DNA of 53,674 nt from Syntrophorhabdaceae bacterium PtaU1.Bin034 (GTDB taxonomy: Bacteria > Desulfobacterota_G > Syntrophorhabdia > Syntrophorhabdales > WCHB1-27). The notes under the pieces were generated by a model. The model saw only the letters and a program-made list of their open reading frames with translations. It had not been told where the DNA came from and ran no database searches. Location of the stretch: positions 1 to 53,674 of the forward strand of contig MVRP01000009.1 in the NCBI GenBank assembly GCA_002067405.1. The letters run 5' to 3'. The position numbers and the translations under genes were made by a program. Positions 18,448-53,134 of the stretch are shown here, in pieces (positions within the stretch are counted from its first letter, which is position 1; every line of letters begins with the position of its first letter).

Positions 18448-19275
18448 ATGTACCTCGTTACCTTTACAAGGAAAATGGGAACCAGCGGATCGGAGATCGC
18501 GATGATGGTCGCGGGGCAGTTGCAGTACAAGCTCTATGACACCGAGGCTATCGAAAATACCGCAAGAGAAATGGGTTTTCTCAACGATGTCAAGGTGGTG
18601 GATGAAAAAGCCCCATCTTTGTTCGAAAGGCTCTTTTCGCATCGACCCGAGATATATCTGGACCGCCTCAACTCGGTCATCTATGAACTGGCGAGCAGGG
18701 GGAATGCCGTGTTCCTCGGGCGGGGGAGCCACGTGCTCTTACGGACTTTGAAATGCGCCTTGCACGTGAGGGTGACCGCATCTATGGAAAAACGTTTGAG
18801 GAACCTGATGAAGAGGGGTTTTCAGAAGGAAGAGGCCATGAGGGCTTTGCGCAAAAGCGACCACGAGAGGGCGGCTTTCATCAAATTCGCCTTTGGCGTG
18901 GACTGGGATGACCCGGAACAGTATGACGTAGTGTTCAATATGGATAACCTGACCGTCGATCTTGCGGTTGATACCGTAGTGCAGATGGCGCGTGCCGAAG
19001 AAATAAAGGCGCGCTCGATAGATGCAATGATCTCTTTGGAAATGATGGGCTTAACCAAAAGAGTAGAAGCGGCCTTGATAGAGGCTGGTTTTTCGCTGAC
19101 ATCCCTCTCGGTTTCAGTTGCAGAGCCGGGTAGGATCGAGCTGGGGGGATCCGTGGACGTCCAATCTGACAAGGATAAAGCGGAAAAGGTTATAAGACAG
19201 GTCAAAGGCGTTAAATTTGTACACAACCAAATCCAGGCAGGACGGGTAAGAGAGGGGTTTGCGCGAGGCGTGTGA
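18448..19275 (+). CDS. Cytidylate kinase-like protein with C-terminal BON domain (275 aa)
   Basis: Residues 1-190 match the cytidylate kinase-like (AAA/Cytidylate_kin2) family: the opening YLVTFTRKMGTSGSEIAMMVA, the YDTEAIENTARE block, the VFLGRGSHVLL core strand, and RNLMKRGFQKEEAMRALRKSDHERAAFIKFAFGVDWDDP, with the last part being the lid/substrate segment. The P-loop GTSGSEIA lacks the usual lysine, as is common in this family, so kinase activity is uncertain. Residues ~200-265 (MMGLTKRVEAALIEAGF, VDVQSDKDKAEKVIRQVKGV) form a BON-like domain, often involved in membrane or lipid binding. AAGGAGG lies 8 bases before ATG 18448. A terminator-like structure follows. Substrate and role are unknown. 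Confidence 0.82.
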   Translation: MYLVTFTRKMGTSGSEIAMMVAGQLQYKLYDTEAIENTAREMGFLNDVKVVDEKAPSLFERLFSHRPEIYLDRLNSVIYELASRGNAVFLGRGSHVLLRTLKCALHVRVTASMEKRLRNLMKRGFQKEEAMRALRKSDHERAAFIKFAFGVDWDDPEQYDVVFNMDNLTVDLAVDTVVQMARAEEIKARSIDAMISLEMMGLTKRVEAALIEAGFSLTSLSVSVAEPGRIELGGSVDVQSDKDKAEKVIRQVKGVKFVHNQIQAGRVREGFARGV

Positions 19276-38039: not shown

Positions 38040-39278
38040 TCAAGGAAAAAGAGAGAGCTGCGAGGGTTTGTTATCCAGTATTTCCCGGATTTGCCTGAGA
38101 AGCTTCTCGACTGCCACGGGCTTCGTGATCATCGGGATTCCCTCTCTGCTGATGCCTTTGCTCGAAAGGATATCGCCCGTGTAACCACTCATTAAAAGAA
38201 CCCTTATGTCAGGGCGCGTCTTCTGCAGCTCGACATATGTTTCCTTCCCGTTCTTTCGAGGCATAATGAGGTCCAGCAAGAGCAGATCGATTGCCCCGCC
38301 GTTCGCCCTGAATTTTTCTATCGCATCCTCGCCGTCAAAAGCTTCCACCACGGTATAGCCGAAGTCGCGCAGGGTAGTCGCGACGATCTCCCTCACCTGG
38401 GCATTGTCCTCGGCTACCAGAATCACCTCGTTGCCTCCGCGCAGTCCTGCCTTTTCACGCGGGATATCCTCTGTTGAGACAGGTTCGGCGAGGGGCAGAT
38501 ATATGGTGAAGGTGGCGCCCTTGCCGGGCTCGCTGCTCACGTCTATATAACCTTTATTTTGATGGACGATGCCGTACACTATCGAAAGCCCCAGGCCGGT
38601 GCCTTTTCCCACATCTTTTGTCGTAAAAAAGGGATCGAAAATCTGGTCCTTCGTTGTCTCGTCCATGCCTTTCCCTGTATCGGACACCTCGATGGCGACG
38701 TATGCCCCCTCCTTTCCGCCATGCGTTTTTGCGACTTCGCCGCTGAGGTGCACCTGTTCGGTCTTGATGGACAGGATGCCGCCGTCAGGCATTGCGTCCC
38801 TTGCGTTGGTGGCCAGGTTCATCAACAGTTGGCCCATGTGGCCGTCGCCGATAATCACGATAAGTCTTTCCCGGCTGAGCGTTGTCCGCAGTTCTATGTC
38901 TTCGCCGATTATTCTTCGGAAAAGCTTTTCCACACCCCTTATGCTCTCATTGACATCGACAGGCTTCGCCTCCACTGTCTGCCTTCGACTGAAGGCGAGG
39001 AGGCTCTGGGTAAGAGTACTGGCTCTGTTTGCCGCTTCCATGATCTGGTTCACATAGACGAGAAGGGGGTTTTTCTCGCCGGCCTTCATGGTGATCAGGC
39101 TGCAATACCCCATGATAGTGGTGAGGATATTATTGAAGTCGTGGGCAATACCTCCGGCAAGGGTGCCTATGCTTTCCATCTTCTGGGCGTGCCTGAGCTG
39201 GGCTTCAAGCTTTTTCCGCTCGGTTATGCTCTCTAACGTGCCTTCATGGTAGAGGACATTCCCTCCGTCATCCCGCAC
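38040..39278 (-). CDS. Histidine kinase + receiver, 3' part of an amber-interrupted gene
   Basis: From the first in-frame ATG after the interruption the protein is 412 residues. It begins inside the end of a PAS domain ([21 protein letters not shown]). HisKA follows with phospho-acceptor H46 in [11 protein letters not shown], then HATPase ([27 protein letters not shown]) and a receiver ([11 protein letters not shown], phospho-acceptor Asp in [12 protein letters not shown]). The phosphotransfer core looks intact. The first ATG has no clear ribosome site and lies 78 bases beyond the stop, so independent translation is doubtful. The frame is continuous with the upstream fragment. A receiver without an output domain suggests a phosphorelay. 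The fragment may be a dead remnant or be made by readthrough. Confidence 0.8.
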
Positions 39279-39356
39279 CTCTTTCGCATTGAGCGATACC
39301 CAGTGGGTGCTTCCATCCTTGCATTGGGCCTGAACTTCAAAATCCCGGATGATCCC

Positions 39357-39995
39357 CTAGGTGTCCATCAGGTAGAAGTATTCTTTCCGTCTCCTTTCAT
39401 TCGCATATACCTGGCTCACGATATTCCTGACGTTATTCAACAGGTCCCGGGGTGAGTCGTATCCAAGGATACGGGCAAGGGCAGGGTTTGCGCTGATAAG
39501 CCTGCCCTCCGGCGATGCCTGGAATATCCCTTCTATGGCGTTCTCGTATATTTGCCGATACTTTTCTTCGGCCTGTCTCAGGGCCTTTTCGGCTTTCCAC
39601 TTCTCCGTAATGTCCTGCGCCGTTCCCTCGACGTACCTGACGGCGCCCTTTTCGTCGCGCGCAATGTGCGCGTTCAGGAGCACATGGATCGCAGTGCCGT
39701 CTTTCCTGTACATCTCCGCTTCAAAGTCCTCTATGACGCCGTCTTTCCTAATGAGCTTCAGATATCTCTTTCCGTCTTCCGGATTCACGTAGATCTGGTT
39801 CACGATGTCGGTGACCGACGACATCAACTCTTCAGGAGAGTCGAAACCGAGCAGCCGGGCGGTCGCGCGGTTGGTTTTCAAAAACCGTCCGTCTATGGTG
39901 CTCCTGAAAATCCCCACCACCGCGTTTTCAAACATCGTCCTGTAGTCATCTTCGCTCCTGGGCAGCCCTTCCGTCTTCCGTTTCCGGCCGGTCAT
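39357..39995 (-). CDS. Twin-PAS sensor fragment, 5' part of an amber-interrupted gene (212 aa)
   Basis: The fragment carries a complete PAS/PAC domain (about residues 18-132, ending VRYVEGTAQDITEKWKAEKAL) and most of a second PAS domain (about 140-212, EEKYRQIYENAIEGIFQASPEGRLISANPALARILGYDSP). It stops at TAG (39359-39357 on the minus strand) in the middle of the PAC strand. After the stop the same frame continues GIIRDFEVQAQCKDGSTHW, which aligns with the first domain's GVIEDFEAEMYRKDGTAIH. The stop takes the place of an aspartate in the first copy. Alone it would be a soluble sensor without a kinase. Confidence 0.8.
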   Translation of the reverse strand: MTGRKRKTEGLPRSEDDYRTMFENAVVGIFRSTIDGRFLKTNRATARLLGFDSPEELMSSVTDIVNQIYVNPEDGKRYLKLIRKDGVIEDFEAEMYRKDGTAIHVLLNAHIARDEKGAVRYVEGTAQDITEKWKAEKALRQAEEKYRQIYENAIEGIFQASPEGRLISANPALARILGYDSPRDLLNNVRNIVSQVYANERRRKEYFYLMDT

Positions 39996-41495: not shown

Positions 41496-42008
41496 TTACA
41501 TCAATTTCCTGGCTTCCTCCAAAGCCCGGTCATAATTGGGCGGCTCGGTCATTTCAGGCACGATCTCGATGTAACGGACAACGTCTGCCTTGTCTATTAC
41601 GAAGATCGAACGGGCGAGAAGCCTGAGCTCCTTCACAAGAACCCCGTACTCGTTTCCGAAGGAGGCGTCACGGTGATCCGACAGCGTCCTCAGCTTATCG
41701 ATCCCTCTGTGTGAACAGAACCTCGTGATAGCGAAGGGCAGGTCCATGCTTATGTTGATCACTGCTACCTCGTCTGATAATGACGCTGCCTGCTTGTTGA
41801 ACGTCTGTGCCTGCAGGTCGCACACCGGTGTATCGAGCGAAGGCGTGACGCTCAGGATTTTTACTTTTCCTTTAAAGTCGGCCAGGGTAACAGGGGTGAG
41901 ATCCTTGTCGAGAACGGTAAAAGACGGTGCCTTGTCCCCGGTCTTTACCTCGTTGCCGATCAGCGTCAGCGGTGTGCCGCCGAATGTCACCAGATTTCTC
42001 CTCTCCAT
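41496..42008 (-). CDS. tpx: Thiol peroxidase Tpx (170 aa)
   Basis: An atypical two-cysteine peroxiredoxin reducing hydrogen and organic peroxides with thioredoxin. The peroxidatic C63 is in SLDTPVCDLQ and the resolving C98 in FAITRFCSH, with the family spacing of 35. The N-terminus VTFGGTPLTLIGNEVKTGDKAP and the late SIFVIDKADVVRYIEIVPEMTEPPNYD are diagnostic. The start is ATG 42008, with AAAGGAGG 9 bases upstream; the open frame extends to 42179 without support. It stands alone, convergent with the miniprotein gene and downstream of the ABC ATPase on the same strand after 180 bp. In an anaerobe it would protect against incidental oxygen. Confidence 0.96.
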   Translation of the reverse strand: MERRNLVTFGGTPLTLIGNEVKTGDKAPSFTVLDKDLTPVTLADFKGKVKILSVTPSLDTPVCDLQAQTFNKQAASLSDEVAVINISMDLPFAITRFCSHRGIDKLRTLSDHRDASFGNEYGVLVKELRLLARSIFVIDKADVVRYIEIVPEMTEPPNYDRALEEARKLM

Positions 42009-42188
42009 CGTTGCAGTCCTCCTTTGGATTCTCTTTTCAGAAATATATGCACCCGATCGGCCGGACGCACGTACATTCAAACGGATCACAAAGGTTTGCC
42101 GGATGCGGAAATCAGGATGAACGCAAGGATCGATTCTATCGGAGGCTGATGCAGCGCCTGCCCTCCGTCCGGCAGGCACCGGATAATA

Positions 42189-42983
42189 TCAATCCAAAAC
42201 CGGCCAGTAACGGCCGTTCTTCCTTATCAGTTGTGCCGAGACACCGTAAAGATGCCTGATTGTCTCCGGCGTGAGGATTTCAGGCGTCGGCCCTCCGGCC
42301 ATGATCTTTCCCTCTTTCAGGATGAGGGTTTTGCCGAAGACGGGAATGATCTCTTCCGGGTGATGGGTGACGTAGACGAGTCCCGGCAGTTCCCGGCTTT
42401 TTTTGATTGAGGAAAGGGCGGACAGGAATATCTCCCTGGCCCCGGGATCCATCCCGGCACACGGCTCGTCGAGGATAAGCAGATAAGGGTCAGCCATCAG
42501 GGCCCTGCAGATGAGCACCTTCTGCTGTTCCCCCTGGGACAGCACGCCAAACGGTTTTTGCGCAAGATGTGCGCATCCCAGGTCGGCCAGATAGCGTAGC
42601 GCTGCCTCATAGCTGTCCTCGCCCGGTTTTTCCCACGGGAACGCCCAAAGGCCGAACTGGGCATACTTGCCGGAGACCACCGTATCAAGGACGGTCTCCC
42701 CTCTTGGGATATCACCCACCAGCGTCGAGGTGACCCATCCGATGCTCCTTCGCAGCATACCGAGGTCCGCCATGCATTCTCCATTCCGGTATACCTCACC
42801 CCCGCCGTTGGGCCAGACATAGCCGCACACGATTTTCAGCAGCGTGGTTTTCCCCGCGCCGTTCGGTCCGAGGACTGCCCAGTTTTCTCCCCGATCCATT
42901 GTCCACGACAGGTTTTCAAGAATGGTCTTCCCGTTCAGCCGGTGGTTGATGTTCTTTAACTGAAGAAGCGGTGGTTGAGCCAT
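42189..42983 (-). CDS. ABC transporter ATP-binding protein, orphan (264 aa)
   Basis: A single nucleotide-binding domain with Walker A GPNGAGKTT, Q-loop near GWVTST, signature LSQGEQQK, Walker B YLLILDEP, D-loop and switch histidine in YVTHHPEEI. The closest style is the ModF/YlmA-like group (WAVLGPNGAGKTTLLKIVCGYVWPNGGGEV), whose roles include molybdate-related or unknown transport. No permease or binding-protein gene is adjacent, and the orphan DppC-like permease 1.1 kb away belongs to a different ABC subfamily. It begins at ATG 42983 with a weak ribosome site. A GC-rich hairpin without a T-run (42156-42177) follows the stop. Confidence 0.9.
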   Translation of the reverse strand: MAQPPLLQLKNINHRLNGKTILENLSWTMDRGENWAVLGPNGAGKTTLLKIVCGYVWPNGGGEVYRNGECMADLGMLRRSIGWVTSTLVGDIPRGETVLDTVVSGKYAQFGLWAFPWEKPGEDSYEAALRYLADLGCAHLAQKPFGVLSQGEQQKVLICRALMADPYLLILDEPCAGMDPGAREIFLSALSSIKKSRELPGLVYVTHHPEEIIPVFGKTLILKEGKIMAGGPTPEILTPETIRHLYGVSAQLIRKNGRYWPVLD

Positions 42984-43148
42984 CTGTTTCTCTTGCGCAT
43001 ACCCCTTGTTTTACAGAAAAGGGTTTTGAGATGCAGACATGTGTAACACAAACACGGGATGTTTGCAAATGATATGGATTTCGCGATCTTCGTGACGGCA
43101 AACGGAGAAGGAGCCACCGATCAGGTTGAAGAGCCGGACGGCGTGCGG

Positions 43149-44552
43149 TCAAAGCCCGCCTTGAGAGCCTGTCCAGCATCCTTCGGAGGCAAAATAGTCG
43201 GCCACCTTTGACAGGCGGTCATTTTCAAGCTTTGTTTCTATGAACCTGCAGGCGCTTTTCGTCACAAACCAAAATTCGTTCTCGCCCGTAAAATATGATC
43301 TCTTGAAGACAGGCGCGAGGTAGGCGAGGTATGATACTCCTTCGTCATCCCGTTTCACGCATGCATTGATGAGATCGATATAGGCATTCATGATCGCCCT
43401 CTCGTCATCCGTCGCTTTCAACCCGGAAAACGACTTCACATATTCAAGGAGGCCGTCACCCACGGCGATGCGGGGATAGACCGCTGCCTGTGACTCCAGC
43501 CTGTATGCCCTGGCTACAGCCTGACCGTACAAATCGTTATTCTCGAACTCGGTGCATATGCCCGCGTCTACGGCGCCCCTCAGCAGCACTCCCTCTGCCA
43601 GCTGAGTGAGGATGAGAAGGCCGAGCTGATGAAAAAGACCGTAGAGGCTCACCAGCGGTCTGTGCGAACGCTGTCCGCTCAGATTGATCTTGAGCATGGC
43701 CAGATCGGTAAAAAACTGGTAGCCGATCAGGGGCGCCCTCGCGCTTCTGCTGACCATGGCCAACTGCTTGGGCGTGAGCCTTTCGCGTACAAAAGAAGGA
43801 ACCATGTGGCCGCTCGAAAGACTTCCGTGCAAGAGTCGTATTCTGTCCCGGAACCGTTCGACTGTGCCGAAGGTTGCCTGCGTAAGCTTGTCGAAGGTCT
43901 TTTTCTCTTTGGGTGTTCTCGGTATCCGGGAGAATTTTTCGAGCTGCGCTCCCTGGCCGAGAAGGTCGATCATTGCGACGATGTGGAATGCCGCCGACCG
44001 CTTTTTGACGGGCGATTTCCCCCGAATCTCCTTGCCTGCCTCGCCGGCCGGCAATCCCGGAGAATAGTAGTCCCGGTCTTCCGTGATTTCCCTTATCACC
44101 CGGCAGAATTCAGGAAGGGTTATCCGCTCTTTTTCATCGTTCAGGACAGCCTCCAGGATGAGCAGCCCGGCAACGGGTCCGTCGTATTTATCGACGCGAA
44201 ACTGCTGTCCGTTCCATACAAAATCAAACCTGGTTTTTCTTATGGAACCTTTACGGGGATCGCTTCGTCTTGCGAGGGCCTCGAATCTCTGCCCGTCGAT
44301 CTTTTCTCTTCTGTTGAATCTGATCACGGGCTGAGACGTAATGTACTTCTCGATGAGAAAATAGCAGATGTTACCGTCAGATTCCTCCTTCCTTATCCTT
44401 CGATCCATCTTCGGGTCCCTGGACGTAAGAAATATCTGTTCGACCACTGTCTTTTTGTGTTCGGGAAGTTTGGATGCGTCGATGTCGGAAACAAGGAACC
44501 TCCGCTCGATCTCTACGTAGTTGTCCATGACGATTCTTGTCCTTGGTGTCAT
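43149..44552 (-). CDS. CYTH domain fused to a class III cyclase-like domain (467 aa)
   Basis: Residues 12-163 form a CYTH triphosphate-tunnel domain: VEIERRFLV (ExExK motif with K replaced by R18), basic strands (RREKIDGQRFEAL, SIRKTRFDF), FRVDKYDGPVAGLLILEAVL and a final REITEDRDYYS. After a linker, residues ~187-455 resemble uncharacterised class III nucleotidyl-cyclase-like domains: HIVAMIDLLGQG with D196, YQFFTDLAML with D283, LLRGAVDAG, and LYGQAVARAYRLESQAAVYPRIAV. The two aspartates sit where cyclases hold metal. CYTH proteins act on triphosphates (ThTP, polyphosphate, ATP to cAMP), so two nucleotide-type folds share one chain. Start is ATG 44552 (AGGAG, 8 bases) or ATG 44528; the promoter found favours the latter. 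No partner gene is evident. Confidence 0.75.
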   Translation of the reverse strand: MTPRTRIVMDNYVEIERRFLVSDIDASKLPEHKKTVVEQIFLTSRDPKMDRRIRKEESDGNICYFLIEKYITSQPVIRFNRREKIDGQRFEALARRSDPRKGSIRKTRFDFVWNGQQFRVDKYDGPVAGLLILEAVLNDEKERITLPEFCRVIREITEDRDYYSPGLPAGEAGKEIRGKSPVKKRSAAFHIVAMIDLLGQGAQLEKFSRIPRTPKEKKTFDKLTQATFGTVERFRDRIRLLHGSLSSGHMVPSFVRERLTPKQLAMVSRSARAPLIGYQFFTDLAMLKINLSGQRSHRPLVSLYGLFHQLGLLILTQLAEGVLLRGAVDAGICTEFENNDLYGQAVARAYRLESQAAVYPRIAVGDGLLEYVKSFSGLKATDDERAIMNAYIDLINACVKRDDEGVSYLAYLAPVFKRSYFTGENEFWFVTKSACRFIETKLENDRLSKVADYFASEGCWTGSQGGL

Positions 44553-44566
44553 CAGGTGACTCCTGT

Positions 44567-44595
44567 TTTATCCAATACGTATATCTATCTGTAAA
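44567..44595 (-). promoter_or_regulatory. Promoter of the CYTH-cyclase fusion gene
   Basis: On the minus strand TTTACA at 44595-44590 (5 of 6), a 17-base spacer and GATAAA at 44572-44567 (4 of 6). The predicted start near 44560 would leave little leader before ATG 44552 and about 32 bases before ATG 44528. Confidence 0.45.
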
Positions 44596-44844
44596 AGAGG
44601 TCCATTCGTGCACTGTTTGCTGCGACCAGAAACGGGAAAAGGTCTTGTTTCAGGAAATCGAAAGCCGATGGTCCGACCGGGTGAGCTGTAACGACGACAA
44701 AACGACCACAAACCGGGAAACTCGCAGTTGCCATATCATTCTACTGCACCGGAAGTCATAGCGCAAAAAAAAGACAAGGGGTTGGGCAGGGTATCCTACG
44801 AAGCTGTGCGAGGCTGTGCGGTCAGGTCGAAATGTCGACCCGGC

Positions 44845-46887
44845 TTAGCTACTCCCGTTGACAGTCCGGTCGGGTACAAGCGTTGTCACATTCGATTCGT
44901 GCTCGGCGGATTGACCGGCGAATGCCTCTCCACTTTTCATGTCCGGGCGGTAGTGAAAAAACTTGTTCCTCCCGTTCCCTTTCGCATAGTACATGGCGAT
45001 ATCGGCATTTTTCACAATGGTCTCGATGTCTCTGCCGTCTCTCGGATAAATGGCTATTCCGATGCTTGTCGTGACGGAAAGCGGGGATTTGTCCAGTTCA
45101 AAGGGAAAACCAAAGGCCTCCAGTATCTTTATCGCAACGATGGTGGCATCGCTTTCGTCCACGATGTCCGGGAGTATTATGAGAAACTCGTCCCCTCCCA
45201 TCCTCGCAACCGTGTCGCTCTTCCTCAGCACCCGGCCGAGTCGCCTCGCAACCGTCTTGAGAAGCGCATCGCCGACTTTGTGCCCCAGCTCGTCATTCAC
45301 ACTCTTGAACTTGTCAAGATCGAGCATCATTACGGCAACGCGTTTTTTCTCGCGAGACGCCCTGGCCATGGCGACCCGTAAGCGGTCGTTGAAGAGCACC
45401 CTGTTCGGAAGCCTTGTGAGCGCATCATGGTACGCCAGCCGCCTGATGGTCTGCTCGCTCTTCTTGGTAGCGCTCACGTCCCTGATGATGCCCTGGTACT
45501 CGACGATCTCGCCTTTCTCATTCCTCTTGGTATTGACGGTAATGAGGCAGTACATGATACCCTTGTTGCCTTTGAGCCTTATCTCAAAGTCTTTTACGTA
45601 TCCGTCCTCTTTGATGATCTTCTTAAAGGTCTCGCAATCAGCCTGCGTCACGTAGGCAGACTTCGCGTTCGTCGTCCGGAGCGCCTCCCGTGTAATACCG
45701 AATAGGCTCAGGAAAGCCTCATTCACGTCAATAAACGTTCCGTCTCCGGAGGTAATATAGATCGCGTCCCGTGAGCCGTCGAAAAGAGACCTGTATCTCT
45801 CTTCGCTTTCCCGCAAGGCAAGCTCCCATTGCTTTCGTGCGGTGACATCCCTGATGATGCCCTGGAGGTACGTCTCGCCGCCGAATTCAATCTGGTTCAG
45901 GTTAACCTCGGAGTCGAAGAGAGTTCCGTCGGGACGCCGGTATCTCCACTCAAAGAACTGGGCCCCCCGGGACAGGACAGTGGAGGATTTCTGCCCCATC
46001 CTATCCCCGGAGCTGACTCCGTCCAGTTGAAATTCAGGCGAAAAGGACAGTATCGGCACGCCAACCATCTCTTCCTTGGAGCACCTGAACATCTTAAGGG
46101 CCTGGGGATTGCAGTCAACGAACTTCCCGTCTTTGATGAGGACTATGGCGTCGTTTGCCTGTTCAAAAAGAGACTTGTAACGCAGGGCGCTTGTCCTGGC
46201 CTGCTCGTCGGTCTGCTTCTGCACCAGGGCGTCTGCAAAGAATTCACCCACCATCCTGAGAAGCAGGGTTATCTCATCGGGCCATACCTTCCTGTTGGCC
46301 ACACCGTCAAACCTCAAGAATCCCATGATATTAAATCCGTGCACGATGGGTACCGAAAGCATGGAGTTTACGTTTTCGCTCAAAAACGCTCTGCGCTCTG
46401 CCCCCGCTTCCGTGGGCAACTGCAGCACGTCGGGAATATGGATCATCTCGAGGTTCTTGATCTTGCTGAAGATCCAGGGATATTCTTTTTCGGAGACGAC
46501 CGGCGCTACCTCTCTTCCCGGCTTGAACCCCTGCGCCGTCCATTCGGCGTTTTTGAAGGCGGTAAGGCAGTCCTTGTTAAAGAGAAAAACGGAAATCCTG
46601 TCAACGCCTGCATATTCGCCTACTATTCGCATTACGTCCTGCATCCAGCTCTCTATTTCATCGGGCGACAAATAGATGAAGTTCGTGGACAGATTAAAGA
46701 CAAGCTGAAGCAGGTTTTTGCTCTCACGCAGCATCTCCTTCACGTCCGGGCGCTTCGTGGTCCCTTCCGGCCCTCGGGGAATGGCTGCCCGGTTTCCGGA
46801 AGGCTCGTTGACAGAACCTCCATTCGGCATTTTGGAGCGCTGGGATTGCGTGGTCTTGTGAGGTCTGTGAAGGGTCCTTCTCGTCAT
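44845..46887 (-). CDS. GAF-PAS-PAS-GGDEF diguanylate cyclase (680 aa)
   Basis: Makes cyclic di-GMP from GTP. Domains in order: GAF (about 70-225, NSMLSVPIVHGFNIMGFLRFDG), PAS (235-355, ending IIRDVTARKQWE), PAS (365-475, ending IIRDVSATKKSE), GGDEF (490-650). The active-site motif is an intact GGDEF in RMGGDEFLIILPD. An RxxD inhibitory site (RKSD) lies five residues before it, so product feedback is expected. There is no EAL domain and no membrane segment. GAF and PAS ligands are unknown. ATG 46887 has only a weak ribosome site and the first ~50 residues are unstructured, so a later start is possible. The stop is 292 bp upstream of the CYTH-cyclase gene on the same strand. Confidence 0.93.
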   Translation of the reverse strand: MTRRTLHRPHKTTQSQRSKMPNGGSVNEPSGNRAAIPRGPEGTTKRPDVKEMLRESKNLLQLVFNLSTNFIYLSPDEIESWMQDVMRIVGEYAGVDRISVFLFNKDCLTAFKNAEWTAQGFKPGREVAPVVSEKEYPWIFSKIKNLEMIHIPDVLQLPTEAGAERRAFLSENVNSMLSVPIVHGFNIMGFLRFDGVANRKVWPDEITLLLRMVGEFFADALVQKQTDEQARTSALRYKSLFEQANDAIVLIKDGKFVDCNPQALKMFRCSKEEMVGVPILSFSPEFQLDGVSSGDRMGQKSSTVLSRGAQFFEWRYRRPDGTLFDSEVNLNQIEFGGETYLQGIIRDVTARKQWELALRESEERYRSLFDGSRDAIYITSGDGTFIDVNEAFLSLFGITREALRTTNAKSAYVTQADCETFKKIIKEDGYVKDFEIRLKGNKGIMYCLITVNTKRNEKGEIVEYQGIIRDVSATKKSEQTIRRLAYHDALTRLPNRVLFNDRLRVAMARASREKKRVAVMMLDLDKFKSVNDELGHKVGDALLKTVARRLGRVLRKSDTVARMGGDEFLIILPDIVDESDATIVAIKILEAFGFPFELDKSPLSVTTSIGIAIYPRDGRDIETIVKNADIAMYYAKGNGRNKFFHYRPDMKSGEAFAGQSAEHESNVTTLVPDRTVNGSS

Positions 46888-47314
46888 GGGCTCTCATTCA
46901 TATGATTGTAGCGGTGAAACATGGCGACCAGTATATGGGCCTTCATTCCCGTACTATCATTAACGGCAGAATCGCCTTTTCGATGGATGCTGACTTTTAT
47001 CGCGAACAAATCATCATTCAGTGACAGGACAGAGACCTCCGCAAGCTTCCTGCATCATCAGGCCACGTGTATTCTTATCGGCGCCGTAATTGAAATTATT
47101 AAGGGTAAACACGTTTGCCATTATATTTATTAAAACAATGCCACTTTTTACTTAAGAATATCGGAAGAGCCCATCGTTTTTCAATGGTTAATTGAAATCA
47201 TAAGTTGTAAGCCTGAAGAAGTACGGGCACTTACATTGTGTTGATCAGCGATAAACGATTTGCTTAAGACGTTCCTCCTTACCGGCCGGCCATCACGGAT
47301 CTCGAACATAATAG
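46888..47314. other. Gene-free 427-bp stretch, partly AT-rich
   Basis: No coding pattern is visible. The 47080-47200 part is clearly more AT-rich than its surroundings. On the minus strand it includes a perfect TATAAT (47125-47120) but no matching -35. This could be the promoter region of the diguanylate cyclase gene, which starts at 46887. I see no RNA gene or repeat. Confidence 0.5.
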
Positions 47315-47689: not shown

Positions 47690-47900
47690 CCTCTAAAATC
47701 CTCCCGCGATGCCGGATGCCGGCCAACAAACGATTAGAAAGGCTTTTCTCTATTACTTCAAAGATATAATCCGAATCGATCATGTCAACCCCAGCAGCCG
47801 AGGGTGGAAGAACGGGCCTTCCGCCTTGTTCCTCTGCGACAAAGCTGATAGAGTTTTCAGGAGGTTCGTGCAGAACCTATCTTGCGTGAAGGGGGCAGCC

Positions 47901-50498
47901 ATGAAGGCAGGAGCGGTGACCACAGGTCTCGCCGGATTTGATGAGGTGATCGACGGTCTAAGGACCGGGGACAATGTGGTATGGCAGGTTGATAATATGG
48001 ATGATTACAGATTTTTTGCCGGCTTTTTCGCCCGGAGCGCTCTTTCCCATGCAAAAAAGGTGGTCTATATGAGGTTTGCCGCCCATGGGCCTCTGTTGAA
48101 GGAAGATGAAAGAACAAAAACCTATGAGCTTGATGCAAGGAGCGGGTTCGAGACCTTCTCCACGCAGGTCCATCAGATCATCACCAGGGAAGGGGAAGAC
48201 GTTCATTACGTCTTTGACTCCCTTTCGGACCTTCTCTCGGCATGGGCAACCGACCTTATGATCGGCAACTTTTTCCTCATTACCTGTCCCTACCTTTTTC
48301 AGCTCAACACGGTCGCTTATTTCGGGCTGATCAGGAACAATCATTCCTTCAAAACGGTCGCAAGAATACGGGAGACAACCCAGGTGCTCCTCGATGTCTA
48401 CCATACCGGGGGAGACCTCTACGTCCATCCGCTCAAGGTGAGAGGGCGACACTCCCCTACGATGTTCCTGCCCCACAAGAAAGAATCGGAGAGATTCATC
48501 CCTTTGACGAGCAGCGTGGATGCAACAAGGCTGCTCACGCACATCTCGGGCAAGGGGATTGAACATGCAGCGAGGAATCTCGATTACTGGGACCGGCTGT
48601 TTTTGAACGTCGAGGAACTGCTGCGTAACGGCCGGGACCAGGAAAAACAGCTTCCCATGCTGGAACATTTGTGCCACATCATGATCGGCCGTGAAAAGCG
48701 TATTCTTGATCTGGCGCAGAAATACCTTTCCCTGCAGGACCTGCTCGCGATCAAGACGAGGCTGATAGGGACGGGCTACATAGGGGGCAAGAGCGTCGGC
48801 ATGCTGCTCGCCCGAAAGATACTCCTTCAGGACAGCTCCTGCGACTGGCACGCGCGGCTCGAGCCTCACGACTCGTTCTTCGTGGGCTCGGATGTGTTTT
48901 ACACCTATCTTGTCGAGAACGGCTGGTGGAAACTGCGGATGCAGCAGAAGACGAAGGGAGGCTACTTCAAGGCTGCCCGCATCCTGCGCGAACAAATGCT
49001 CGACGGGTCCTTTCCTGATGAGATCGAGGAGCAGTTCTGGCAGGTCATCGAGTATTTCGGCCAGTCGCCCATTATCGTCCGGTCGAGCAGCCTTCTCGAA
49101 GATGCCTTTGGCAATGCCTTTGCGGGCAAATACGAGAGCATCTTCTGCGTCAACCAGGGGACGCCCGAGCAGCGGTACAGGCAATTCAGGGACAGTGTCC
49201 GCAGGGTCTTTGCCAGCACCATGAACGAGGACGCCCTGGCGTACCGTATTCAGCGCGGACTGGACAGGCAGGACGAACAGATGGCTCTCCTGGTGCAGCG
49301 GGTGTCCGGCTCCCACAGGCGGTCGTGGTTTTTCCCCGATCTTGCAGGGGTGGGAATCTCGTACAACACCTTTGTCTGGCAGCAGAACATGGACCCCCGG
49401 GCAGGTATGTTGAGACTGGTGGTCGGTCTGGGGACCCGTGCCGTCAACCGGACTGAAGACGACTACCCCAGGATCGTGGCGCTCGATGCACCGCTTTTGA
49501 AGCCCCACGAAGGTATCAGGGACACGAGAAAGTATTCGCAGCACCAGGCGGATATCCTGAACATGGACGCAAACCTCCTCCAGACGGTCCCTGTCGCCGA
49601 TCTTCTGGACGGCCGGATGAAAATCGACACCGATCTTCTGGGCGTCCGGGACAGGGAGGCGGTCGACCTCATGAGGGAACGGGGCATAACGGACGGGGAG
49701 ATCTGGGTGCTCACTTTTGACAATCTCCTCTCTCAGAAGCCCTTTCTCGCAACCATGCAGAAGATGCTGAAAGACCTGGAAAAAGCCTATCAATACCCGG
49801 TGGATATCGAGTTCACCGCCAACTTTGACGACAGCACTACGTTCCGGATCAATCTTGTCCAGTGCAGGCCGCTTCAGACGAGAGGGGAGGGAAGGAAAAT
49901 AGCCATGCCACGGGACGTTCCCCCTGACGGCCTGCTCTTCGATTCCAAGGGAAATTTCATGGGCGGCAGCACGGTCCAGCCGGTCAGGCGGGTTGTCTAC
50001 GTCGATCCTGAGGCGTACGGCCGGCTCTCTCTGTCCGGAAAGTACGATGTGGCCCGTCTTATCGGGAAGCTCAACCGGCAGGTCGACAAAGAAGAGATGC
50101 CGACCCTCCTCATAGGACCGGGAAGGTGGGGGACCTCAACCCCTTCTCTCGGCGTGCCGGTGAGGTTCTCCGAGATAAACCGGGTGTCAGCACTCGTGGA
50201 GATCGCCCAGGCAGGTTCCGGGGTAATGCCGGAGCTCTCCTTCGGCACCCATTTCTTCCAGGACCTGGTGGAAGCGGGCATCTTTTACATAGCCCTGTTC
50301 CCGGAAGCGGAGGGAGTACTGTTCAATGTGGAGTGGTTCAACAGCAGGGAAAATGACCTGAAGACGCTCCTCGCCGAGGGCAGCCGCTACGAAGAGGTGG
50401 TGCGCGTGCAGAACGTGAACCGGAAGGATCTCTATCTCATGGCGGATATCGTGAGTCAAAGGGTCCTCTGCTGCATCTCGGAGAAGATCGACCAGTAG
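47901..50498 (+). CDS. Degenerate KaiC-like domain fused to a PEP-synthase ATP-grasp domain (865 aa)
   Basis: Residues 1-~225 follow the KaiC/RecA pattern (VTTGLAGFDEVIDGLRTGDNVVW, then a Walker B-like VFDSLSDLL). However, the P-loop is replaced by QVDNMDDYRFFAGFF with no GxxxxGKT, so ATP binding there is unlikely. From about 290 a PPDK/PEP-synthase N-terminal domain follows: IGGKSVGMLLARKIL, the signature IVRSSSLLEDAFGNAFAGKYES, then INLVQCRPLQTR near 720. The phospho-histidine and PEP-binding TIM-barrel domains of PEP synthase are absent; instead an unassigned 130-residue tail contains LLIGPGRWGTSTPSLGVPV. It may be a regulatory phosphotransferase. AAGGGGG lies 5 bases before ATG 47901. Its last 43 bases overlap nrpR on the other strand. 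Confidence 0.8.
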   Translation: MKAGAVTTGLAGFDEVIDGLRTGDNVVWQVDNMDDYRFFAGFFARSALSHAKKVVYMRFAAHGPLLKEDERTKTYELDARSGFETFSTQVHQIITREGEDVHYVFDSLSDLLSAWATDLMIGNFFLITCPYLFQLNTVAYFGLIRNNHSFKTVARIRETTQVLLDVYHTGGDLYVHPLKVRGRHSPTMFLPHKKESERFIPLTSSVDATRLLTHISGKGIEHAARNLDYWDRLFLNVEELLRNGRDQEKQLPMLEHLCHIMIGREKRILDLAQKYLSLQDLLAIKTRLIGTGYIGGKSVGMLLARKILLQDSSCDWHARLEPHDSFFVGSDVFYTYLVENGWWKLRMQQKTKGGYFKAARILREQMLDGSFPDEIEEQFWQVIEYFGQSPIIVRSSSLLEDAFGNAFAGKYESIFCVNQGTPEQRYRQFRDSVRRVFASTMNEDALAYRIQRGLDRQDEQMALLVQRVSGSHRRSWFFPDLAGVGISYNTFVWQQNMDPRAGMLRLVVGLGTRAVNRTEDDYPRIVALDAPLLKPHEGIRDTRKYSQHQADILNMDANLLQTVPVADLLDGRMKIDTDLLGVRDREAVDLMRERGITDGEIWVLTFDNLLSQKPFLATMQKMLKDLEKAYQYPVDIEFTANFDDSTTFRINLVQCRPLQTRGEGRKIAMPRDVPPDGLLFDSKGNFMGGSTVQPVRRVVYVDPEAYGRLSLSGKYDVARLIGKLNRQVDKEEMPTLLIGPGRWGTSTPSLGVPVRFSEINRVSALVEIAQAGSGVMPELSFGTHFFQDLVEAGIFYIALFPEAEGVLFNVEWFNSRENDLKTLLAEGSRYEEVVRVQNVNRKDLYLMADIVSQRVLCCISEKIDQ

Positions 50499-51624: not shown

Positions 51625-52986
51625 TTAGACTATGCCGTAGGCGAGCATGGTGTTTGCCACTTTCAGGAAGCCGGCGATATTCGCGCCCGTCACATAGTCA
51701 TTTTTACTGCCGCCGTACGCTTCAGCGGCATCCATGCATGACTTGTGGATGCTCTTCATGATCATGCGGAGCCTGTTGTCTACCTCTTCCCTGGTCCACA
51801 GGAGCCTCATGCTGTTCTGCGTCATCTCCAGGCCGGAAGTGGCCACCCCTCCCGCATTTGCGGCCTTGCCCGGTCCGTAGAGTATGTTGTTGTCCTGGTA
51901 GCACTTGATCGCCTCGGGCGTGGACGGCATGTTGGAGCCTTCAACCACGCAGAGGCAGCCGTTGCTGCAAAGCGCGGCCGCGTGGTCCCCGTCAATCTCG
52001 TTCTGCGTGGCACACGGGATAGCGACATCGACCTTGAGGCCCTGTTTCTTGATTACATCCCAAATGCTTTCGCCGATAAAGCAGACGGCCGATGAGTACC
52101 TGTCCGCGTACTCGCTTATGCGGCCCCTTCGCACATTCTTGAGGTTCATGACGAATTCGCATTTTTTATCACGGATGCCTTCCTGATCGACGATCGTCGA
52201 GCTGGAATCGCAGAGGCTTATGACCCTGCCGCCAAGCTGGTTCACTTTTTCTACGGCATATTGCGCCACATTCCCGGAACCGCTGATGGCAACGTTCTTT
52301 CCCCTGAGATCCTGGCCCTTAGTCGCCAGCATTTCCGCCGCGAAATAGACGGCGCCGTAGCCTGTCGCCTCCGGGCGGATAAGGCTGCCGCCGTATTCGA
52401 GCCGCTTTCCGGTAAACACGCCTGTATGGTCGTTCATGATCTTTTTGTAGTAGCCGTAAAGGTATCCTATCTCCCTTGCCCCCACGCCGATGTCTCCTGC
52501 GGGAACATCCGTGTCGGGCCCGATGTGCCGGAAGAGCTCCTGCGCAAAGGCGTGGCAGAATCTCATTACCTCGTCGTCCGATTTGCCCTTCGGGTCGAAG
52601 TCCGACCCCCCTTTTGCGCCGCCCATGGGAAGGGTGGTGAGTGAATTCTTGAAGATCTGCTCGAATCCGAGGAATTTCATTATGTTGAGGTTCACCGAAG
52701 GGTGAAAACGCAATCCGCCTTTGTACGGCCCTATGGCATTGTTGTACTGTACCCTGAACCCCCGGTTTACCTGTACCTGGCCCCTGTCATCCACCCAGGG
52801 GACCCTGAAGACAATGGTCCTGTCCGGTTCGACGATCCGGTCGTATATTTTTGCTTTCACGAATTCCGGGTGCTTTCGCGTTGTCGGCTCAAGGCTGTGC
52901 AGGACTTCCTCCACTGCCTGATGAAATTCGAATTCGTAAGGATCGCGCTGTTTTACCTTCTCGATGACATCTCCGATTACAGACAT
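51625..52986 (-). CDS. gdhA: Glutamate dehydrogenase, NADP-type hexameric family (453 aa)
   Basis: Converts 2-oxoglutarate and ammonia to glutamate, or the reverse. Substrate-site sequence includes GPYKGGLRFHPSVNLNIMKFLGFEQIFKNSLTTLPMGGAKGGSDFDPKGKSD, and the catalytic-loop VPAGDIGVGAREIG is intact. The Rossmann fold carries ISGSGNVAQYAVEKV. The length of about 450 residues and the N-terminal helices (DPYEFEFHQAVEEVLHSL) match the small hexameric GdhA group, usually NADPH-linked. The start is ATG 52986, with GGGAGG about 8 bases upstream; the open frame runs to 53019. nrpR follows 74 bases downstream, suggesting autoregulated nitrogen assimilation. Confidence 0.96.
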   Translation of the reverse strand: MSVIGDVIEKVKQRDPYEFEFHQAVEEVLHSLEPTTRKHPEFVKAKIYDRIVEPDRTIVFRVPWVDDRGQVQVNRGFRVQYNNAIGPYKGGLRFHPSVNLNIMKFLGFEQIFKNSLTTLPMGGAKGGSDFDPKGKSDDEVMRFCHAFAQELFRHIGPDTDVPAGDIGVGAREIGYLYGYYKKIMNDHTGVFTGKRLEYGGSLIRPEATGYGAVYFAAEMLATKGQDLRGKNVAISGSGNVAQYAVEKVNQLGGRVISLCDSSSTIVDQEGIRDKKCEFVMNLKNVRRGRISEYADRYSSAVCFIGESIWDVIKKQGLKVDVAIPCATQNEIDGDHAAALCSNGCLCVVEGSNMPSTPEAIKCYQDNNILYGPGKAANAGGVATSGLEMTQNSMRLLWTREEVDNRLRMIMKSIHKSCMDAAEAYGGSKNDYVTGANIAGFLKVANTMLAYGIV

Positions 52987-53134
52987 ATCTGGAACCTCCC
53001 TTGGTATTTTAGTCGGCATCGACTTTTGCGGGTCTTTCCGCTGCGGCCCTTCCTGCAGGACTCAGACCACCCGGCCGCCGGGCCTTCGGCGTGACCAGCG
53101 GTGGGAAAATCGGACCTGGCCTGTGCCTGATCCT

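Follow-up and report, generated by a model that had tools for sequence, protein, structure and literature searches.

A conserved protein joining a CYTH tunnel domain to a class III cyclase-fold domain in a Syntrophorhabdaceae genome

A stretch of 53,674 nucleotides from Syntrophorhabdaceae bacterium PtaU1.Bin034 (assembly GCA_002067405.1, contig MVRP01000009.1, positions 1 to 53,674; hereafter the window) contains a gene at 43149..44552 on the minus strand, the 467-residue product of which joins an N-terminal CYTH tunnel domain to a C-terminal class III nucleotidyl cyclase-fold domain. Two unrelated nucleotide-handling folds, each including nucleotidyl cyclases, are united in this one conserved chain, and the alignments indicate that both halves keep most of their ligand and metal residues and lose the standard catalytic ones. 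The fusion is real, conserved, and undescribed in the searchable open-access literature, and is a variation on known kinds of domain; the architecture, taken with the changed cyclase active site, suggests an uncharacterised sensor protein.

Architecture and conservation of the fusion protein

The gene is recognised from its open reading frame (ORF), from relatives that align end to end, and from structure prediction. It is read from 44552 to 43149, and frame 1 on the plus strand contains several stops; the original prediction, made from the letters alone, had reported the ORF without its strand. A Shine-Dalgarno-like AGGAG (44560..44564, minus strand), read directly in the sequence, lies 7 nt before the ATG. 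The motifs quoted in that prediction, EIERR (with R as the final residue), MIDLLG, FFTDL, RGAVDAG and YGQAVARAYRLE, are all found in the translation. All features of the protein given below are encoded on the minus strand. The CYTH/TTM tunnel domain occupies residues 13-162 (44067..44516) and is followed by a variable linker (residues 163-186, 43995..44066), the class III nucleotidyl cyclase-fold core (residues 187-364, 43461..43994) and a mostly helical C-terminal part of the cyclase-like family (residues 365-467, 43152..43460), the last delimited by structure prediction.

A search of 5.8 billion proteins, in which 7998 candidates were scored, returned 34 matches. These include 27 full-length fusions (P0002-P0028; 465-499 residues, 49-62% identity) that align end to end, an identical 301-residue piece of the window protein (P0001), two shorter relatives on contigs of 1.3 kb (P0029 and P0030), and four proteins that consist of the second half without the CYTH part (P0031-P0034). 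A lineage can be read from two of the names, Syntrophorhabdus (P0020) and Syntrophorhabdales (P0027). Many of the fusions are named 'CYTH domain-containing protein' by JGI, which shows that some annotation already recognises the CYTH half. Two scans of genome contigs for relatives of the fusion gave no match. Because the 27 relatives align end to end and structure prediction, together with fold search, yields both folds, the fusion architecture is confirmed as more than chance.

The window protein and its full-length relatives form an alignment of 28 rows, to which counts given for 28 fusions refer. Invariant positions number 32/150 in the CYTH domain, 55/178 in the cyclase core and 16/97 in the C-terminal part, with none of 24 in the linker, where pLDDT falls below 50 at residues 163-177. 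The distances of the two halves across the fusions are correlated (0.87 over 378 pairs), as expected if they are inherited together, although shared ancestry alone also gives a high value.

The papers cited here (PMC8233210, PMC4641920, PMC4886424 and PMC11224242) are represented by excerpts, to which the statements citing them apply. CYTH domains occur fused to HD hydrolase, exopolyphosphatase, nucleotidyl kinase and CHAD domains (PMC8233210), YgiF being a CYTH-CHAD protein (PMC4641920). The present protein likewise pairs CYTH with a second domain, but a class III cyclase fold is not named among the partners in the excerpted list of PMC8233210, and no report of such a fusion was found in the open-access literature, judged on titles and the openings of abstracts.

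Altered active sites in both halves

The tunnel half matches the CYTH inorganic tripolyphosphatase NE1496 when the window protein is searched with phmmer (2fbl and 3typ, E=3.4e-4 and 3.6e-4), and Foldseek places it on 2fbl_B (E=2.3e-8, TMt 0.66) with the eight-stranded tunnel barrel fold; it also matches phrog_6660 (E=6.5e-5). Pfam CYTH (PF01928) matches none of the 28 fusions at E up to 1, nor the N-terminal piece at E up to 5, and the fusion profile (A1) has no match among PDB sequences at E up to 0.1. By predicted fold and motif, the N-terminal half is probably a remote CYTH/TTM relative.

The ExExK-type motif, EIERR in the window protein (residues 14-18, 44499..44513; read from the translation and the 28-fusion alignment), is largely retained, with E14 in 28/28 fusions and E16 in 27/28 (Q in one). 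The original prediction had drawn attention to R in place of the final K; it is present here, but is the minority state (R in 3/28, K in 25/28). Among the basic tunnel residues, R54, K69 and R108 are invariant, K106 is found in 27/28 (R in one), and the R52 position holds R in 26/28 and S in two. These two, P0005 and P0006, also have Arg as the final residue of ExExK, so their tunnels are changed further.

The departures lie elsewhere in the tunnel. Strand 8 reads E-A-V in the window protein (residues 134-136, 44145..44153; placed by the alignments), and the fusions have Glu at the first of these positions in 25/28 (R in two, G in one) but Val (27/28) or Leu (1/28) at the second, so that the ExE metal-ligand pair of an active tripolyphosphatase is incomplete throughout. 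The tunnel Tyr position is F in 21, S in four, P in two and T in one, and all 28 fusions have Arg at position 119. The comparators, six CYTH sequences taken from other proteins (L003, L004 and L012-L015), all have strand-8 E-x-E and the tunnel Tyr, and have Glu (5/6) or Gln (1/6) at position 119. The fusions thus share with NE1496 the fold, the ExExK-type start and the basic tunnel residues, and differ in the second ExE Glu, the Tyr, Arg119 and the cyclase-fold partner. In YgiF, E160 is a ligand of metal 1, and E4, E6 and E162 are ligands of metal 2, the ion proposed to activate water; activity is impaired when E6 or E160 is mutated (PMC4641920). From the E-x-E alignment, V136 would correspond to YgiF E162, and because the second strand-8 Glu is lost in 28/28 fusions, tunnel hydrolysis looks weakened. 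We also note that one comparator, L003 (2356-3486), is the terminal CYTH domain of a Miltoncostaea plasmid protein annotated as an AAA family ATPase, with 36% identity to window residues 13-159 and E-x-E intact.

The second half had been proposed to be class III cyclase-like over residues 187-455, and structure prediction and fold search recover that fold, with the organization of a cyclase homology domain. The predicted structure also has helices beyond the long one that comes after strand 1, and others at the C terminus, which we take to be extra relative to class III cyclases. In profile comparison with hhalign, the second half matches a class III control at E=0.0015 (0.39 for the CYTH control). 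This control comprises 119 sequences, mostly of one clade (48-60% identity for most rows) because it was drawn from 120 listed of 3995 class III matches; P0095-P0097 were left out. A two-sequence class III template had proved too thin (E about 0.6), and the larger one was therefore used. Pfam Guanylate_cyc matches one of 51 members of the family profile A4 (E=0.13; the profile is without P0029 and P0089) and not the window protein at E up to 1. The 18 matches of A4 to PDB at E up to 10, the best being PDCD10 (0.014), include no cyclase and are taken as chance.

Residues of the active site were counted in an alignment (A3) of 80 rows, 28 fusions and 52 others; the others include the shortened fusion P0029. 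A3 leaves out 12 of 63 lone proteins (P0049, P0050, P0056, P0064, P0071, P0072, P0079, P0084 and P0090-P0093) and the pieces P0001 and P0030. Both metal aspartates in the original prediction are present in 80/80, as D196 (43965..43967) and D283. We place D196, which lies at the end of strand 1, at the first metal Asp position by topology in the predicted structure and not by profile alignment. The remaining positions lie in two segments, located by the alignments and the profile comparison: Q279 to D283 (43704..43718), with the first base-contact position and the second metal Asp, and D340 to R351 (43500..43535), with the second base-contact position and those of the canonical Asn (A347) and Arg (R351).

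The roles assigned to these positions, in base contact and in the transition state, follow PMC4886424. In the class III control they are nearly uniform (K 118/119, D 118/119, N 119/119, R 119/119; metal Asp 118 and 119 of 119). The base-contact position, Lys in adenylyl and Glu in guanylyl cyclases, is instead Gln in 76/80 (28/28 fusions and 48/52 others, the rest being E in two, I in one and L in one), and the second base-contact position is Asp in 28/28 fusions and Glu in 48/52 others. Asn is absent from its position in all 80, which have G, A or S in the fusions and A (38), S (4), V (3), R (3), K (2), G (1) or L (1) in the others, and the transition-state Arg is found in 13/80 (5/28 fusions, 8/52 others). 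The family therefore differs from class III cyclases such as Rv1264 and soluble guanylate cyclase, and with neither the base-contact Lys nor the Asn retained and the Arg variable, standard cyclase chemistry is not to be assumed.

A replaced base-contact Lys does not by itself imply a dead site, because the cytidylate cyclase EaPycC is active with R142, four residues before the metal Asp D146 and required for activity (PMC11224242). The Pycsar cyclases (PaPycC, 6yii; EaPycC) share with the fusion a class III-type fold, two metal Asp and changed base-contact residues, but the fusion has Gln at the R142 position and no match in PADLOC, and no CYTH fusion is described in the excerpts of PMC11224242. 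DUF2652 proteins are likewise diverged class III-like proteins that nearly always keep the two metal Asp and in many cases lack the Asn; their base-contact pair is K-E or E-K/R, unlike the Gln-Asp of the fusion family (PMC4886424), and DUF2652 is absent among the 25 listed of 27 Pfam families for A4.

A profile search with the second half gave 89 proteins, the lone forms being mostly 280-313 residues long and the few named ones including Sideroxyarcus, Gammaproteobacteria, Spirochaetes and Rheinheimera. Three viral-collection loci carry a lone relative (L009 1-879, L010 2445-3347 and L011 5701-6393; E from 3e-20 to 2e-7 against candidate stretches), with adjacent ORFs that are phage-like by eye. 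All three match phrog_23933, of unknown function, which also matches domain 2 of the window protein (E=7.1e-7), and when viral models were searched by fold with domain 2, one match at E up to 0.001 was obtained, to Harvfovirus. Searches by tblastn with the L010 protein against phages and with the lone relative P0032 against plasmids found no match. The window protein itself gave weak matches to 30 plasmid and eight phage records, mostly to the CYTH half among the matches listed. In the proteins scanned, the cyclase-like family is not clearly covered by any Pfam, NCBIfam or PADLOC model. It occurs alone in bacteria and on viral contigs, and the fold and active-site map make the family testable. 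Acinetobacter plasmids carry weak, apparently partial copies of the cyclase-like half, in which 24-25% matches (L001 6001-6564 and L002 6001-6474) lie beside copper genes and are spanned only in part by annotated coding sequences.

Possible functions

The invariance of the metal aspartates and of the pocket positions speaks against decay; with canonical residues missing, neither cyclase nor phosphatase activity is to be assumed. The reading that we hold tentatively, as plausible though short of probable, is of a triphosphate-binding sensor tunnel that would control a non-standard class III cyclase-fold domain able to bind, and perhaps cyclise, a nucleoside triphosphate (NTP); it is the simplest because it fits both the invariant sites and the missing residues. 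The tunnel would bind a triphosphate-type ligand (inorganic tri- or polyphosphate, or NTP) with little or no hydrolysis, and its state would be passed through the flexible linker to the cyclase-fold domain, which would pair as a homodimer and bind NTP with two metals. If the domain is active, a cyclic nucleotide would be made through residues other than the standard Lys/Asn/Arg set. A tunnel acting as a sensor would add a regulatory role to the known enzymatic ones of CYTH and would name the signal (tri- or polyphosphate, or NTP) for the cyclase-like domain. The more specific proposal, that a tri- or polyphosphate-sensing tunnel gates a cyclase of class III fold whose base-contact pair is Gln-Asp and which makes a cyclic nucleotide through non-standard residues, would be a new type of signalling enzyme combining class IV and class III folds, and we think it unlikely.

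Several points weigh against a sensor tunnel controlling the second domain. Architecture, predicted folds, conserved metal and tunnel residues and missing canonical residues are shown here, and beyond them we infer ligand binding, dimerisation, coupling between the halves and any product. The hhalign probability of the class III match is low, at 16.5% (11.2% with A4), and its register is fixed from the second metal Asp onward, without D196. The absent Asn and variable Arg could mean a dead cyclase domain. K69 aligns with Lys in two of the six comparators, while in the other four a Lys is seen by eye at the preceding position, and mutation of E162 is not reported in the excerpts of PMC4641920 that treat YgiF. 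Since E14 (28/28), E16 (27/28), the first strand-8 Glu (25/28) and the Arg pair are kept, the tunnel may still hydrolyse its ligand. The Pfam scan, which covered part of the window's ORFs, found no cyclic-nucleotide receptor.

Some of these points are shared by a doubtful, if still credible, explanation in which a pseudo-cyclase half only binds NTP and regulates a still-active tunnel phosphohydrolase acting on tri- or polyphosphate or NTP. The uniform absence of the Asn, the scattered Arg, and the largely kept ExE, Arg pair and basic tunnel residues are consistent with it, as is the title of the nearest solved CYTH relative, inorganic triphosphatase NE1496; but the second strand-8 Glu and the Tyr are replaced in every fusion and kept in every comparator, and the metal aspartates are invariant in the cyclase half, as catalysis would need. 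That each half is an enzyme, with a cyclic nucleotide made by the class III domain, a triphosphate hydrolysed by the tunnel and the changed residues tolerated in both, appears distinctly unlikely: both metal Asp and most tunnel residues are kept and several established cyclases lack an Asn equivalent (PMC4886424), yet catalytic residues are altered in both halves at once.

It is very improbable that the protein is a cyclase of phage defence, Pycsar-like or otherwise, whose tunnel senses infection. The lone relatives in viral-collection loci and the phrog_23933 match agree with such a role, and 6yii (PaPycC according to PMC11224242) is found by Foldseek, but at rank 38 (E=2.2e-3), below many ordinary class III enzymes. 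PADLOC has no match to the fusion at E up to 1 and none to five of seven lone relatives; among the other two, P0032 matches typeIV_DinG only (0.016), and the matches of P0055, to PDC-S32 (E=2.6e-4, 31 residues) and to PbeC (E=1.3e-3), are partial. No transmembrane or TIR effector is present among the neighbours scanned. We give equally little credence to a scaffold or binding protein with both halves catalytically dead, which would account for the canonical residues missing from both but not for the strong invariance of metal and pocket positions.

In terms of the original prediction, which offered that the protein might make a nucleotide signal, sense one or hydrolyse a triphosphate, the fold assignments and the two metal Asp stand, and loss of the second strand-8 Glu in all fusions and of the Lys and Asn narrows the activity options without deciding among them.

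Genomic neighbourhood

The upstream neighbour, correctly anticipated as a diguanylate cyclase, is an ORF on the same strand (44845-46887) for a GAF-PAS-GGDEF protein by Pfam (GGDEF E=1.3e-53), separated from the fusion gene by 292 nt; its adjacency is the sole tie between the two. Downstream, after 165 nt, are genes for an ABC ATPase (42189-42983) and a redoxin (41496-42179). In the region 42100-47100 there are four promoter-like sites (2.9 expected) and ten terminator-like sites (5.3 expected, sd 2.5). Two overlapping terminator-like sites on the minus strand (44663-44680) lie between the GGDEF and fusion genes, and there are none on that strand in the downstream gap (42984-43148). Given these gaps and site counts, no operon with the neighbours is claimed.

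Other parts of the window contain additional features. A PAS ORF (39357-39995) and a histidine kinase-receiver ORF (38040-39278), both on the minus strand, are in the same frame 78 nt apart, and the frame is open past the stop of the first, so that 38040-39995 may hold either a single gene containing an in-frame stop or a pair of genes. A cytidylate kinase-like domain (PF13189) is joined to a BON domain at 18448-19275 (plus strand). The 929-residue protein encoded at 47709-50498 (plus strand) is recognised by Pfam in its PPDK N-terminal ATP-binding domain alone (residues 357-730), residues 1-350 having no match at E up to 0.01. An NrpR-type regulator (PF01995; 50456-51550, minus strand) lies beside a gene at 51625-53019 that is glutamate dehydrogenase-like by eye.
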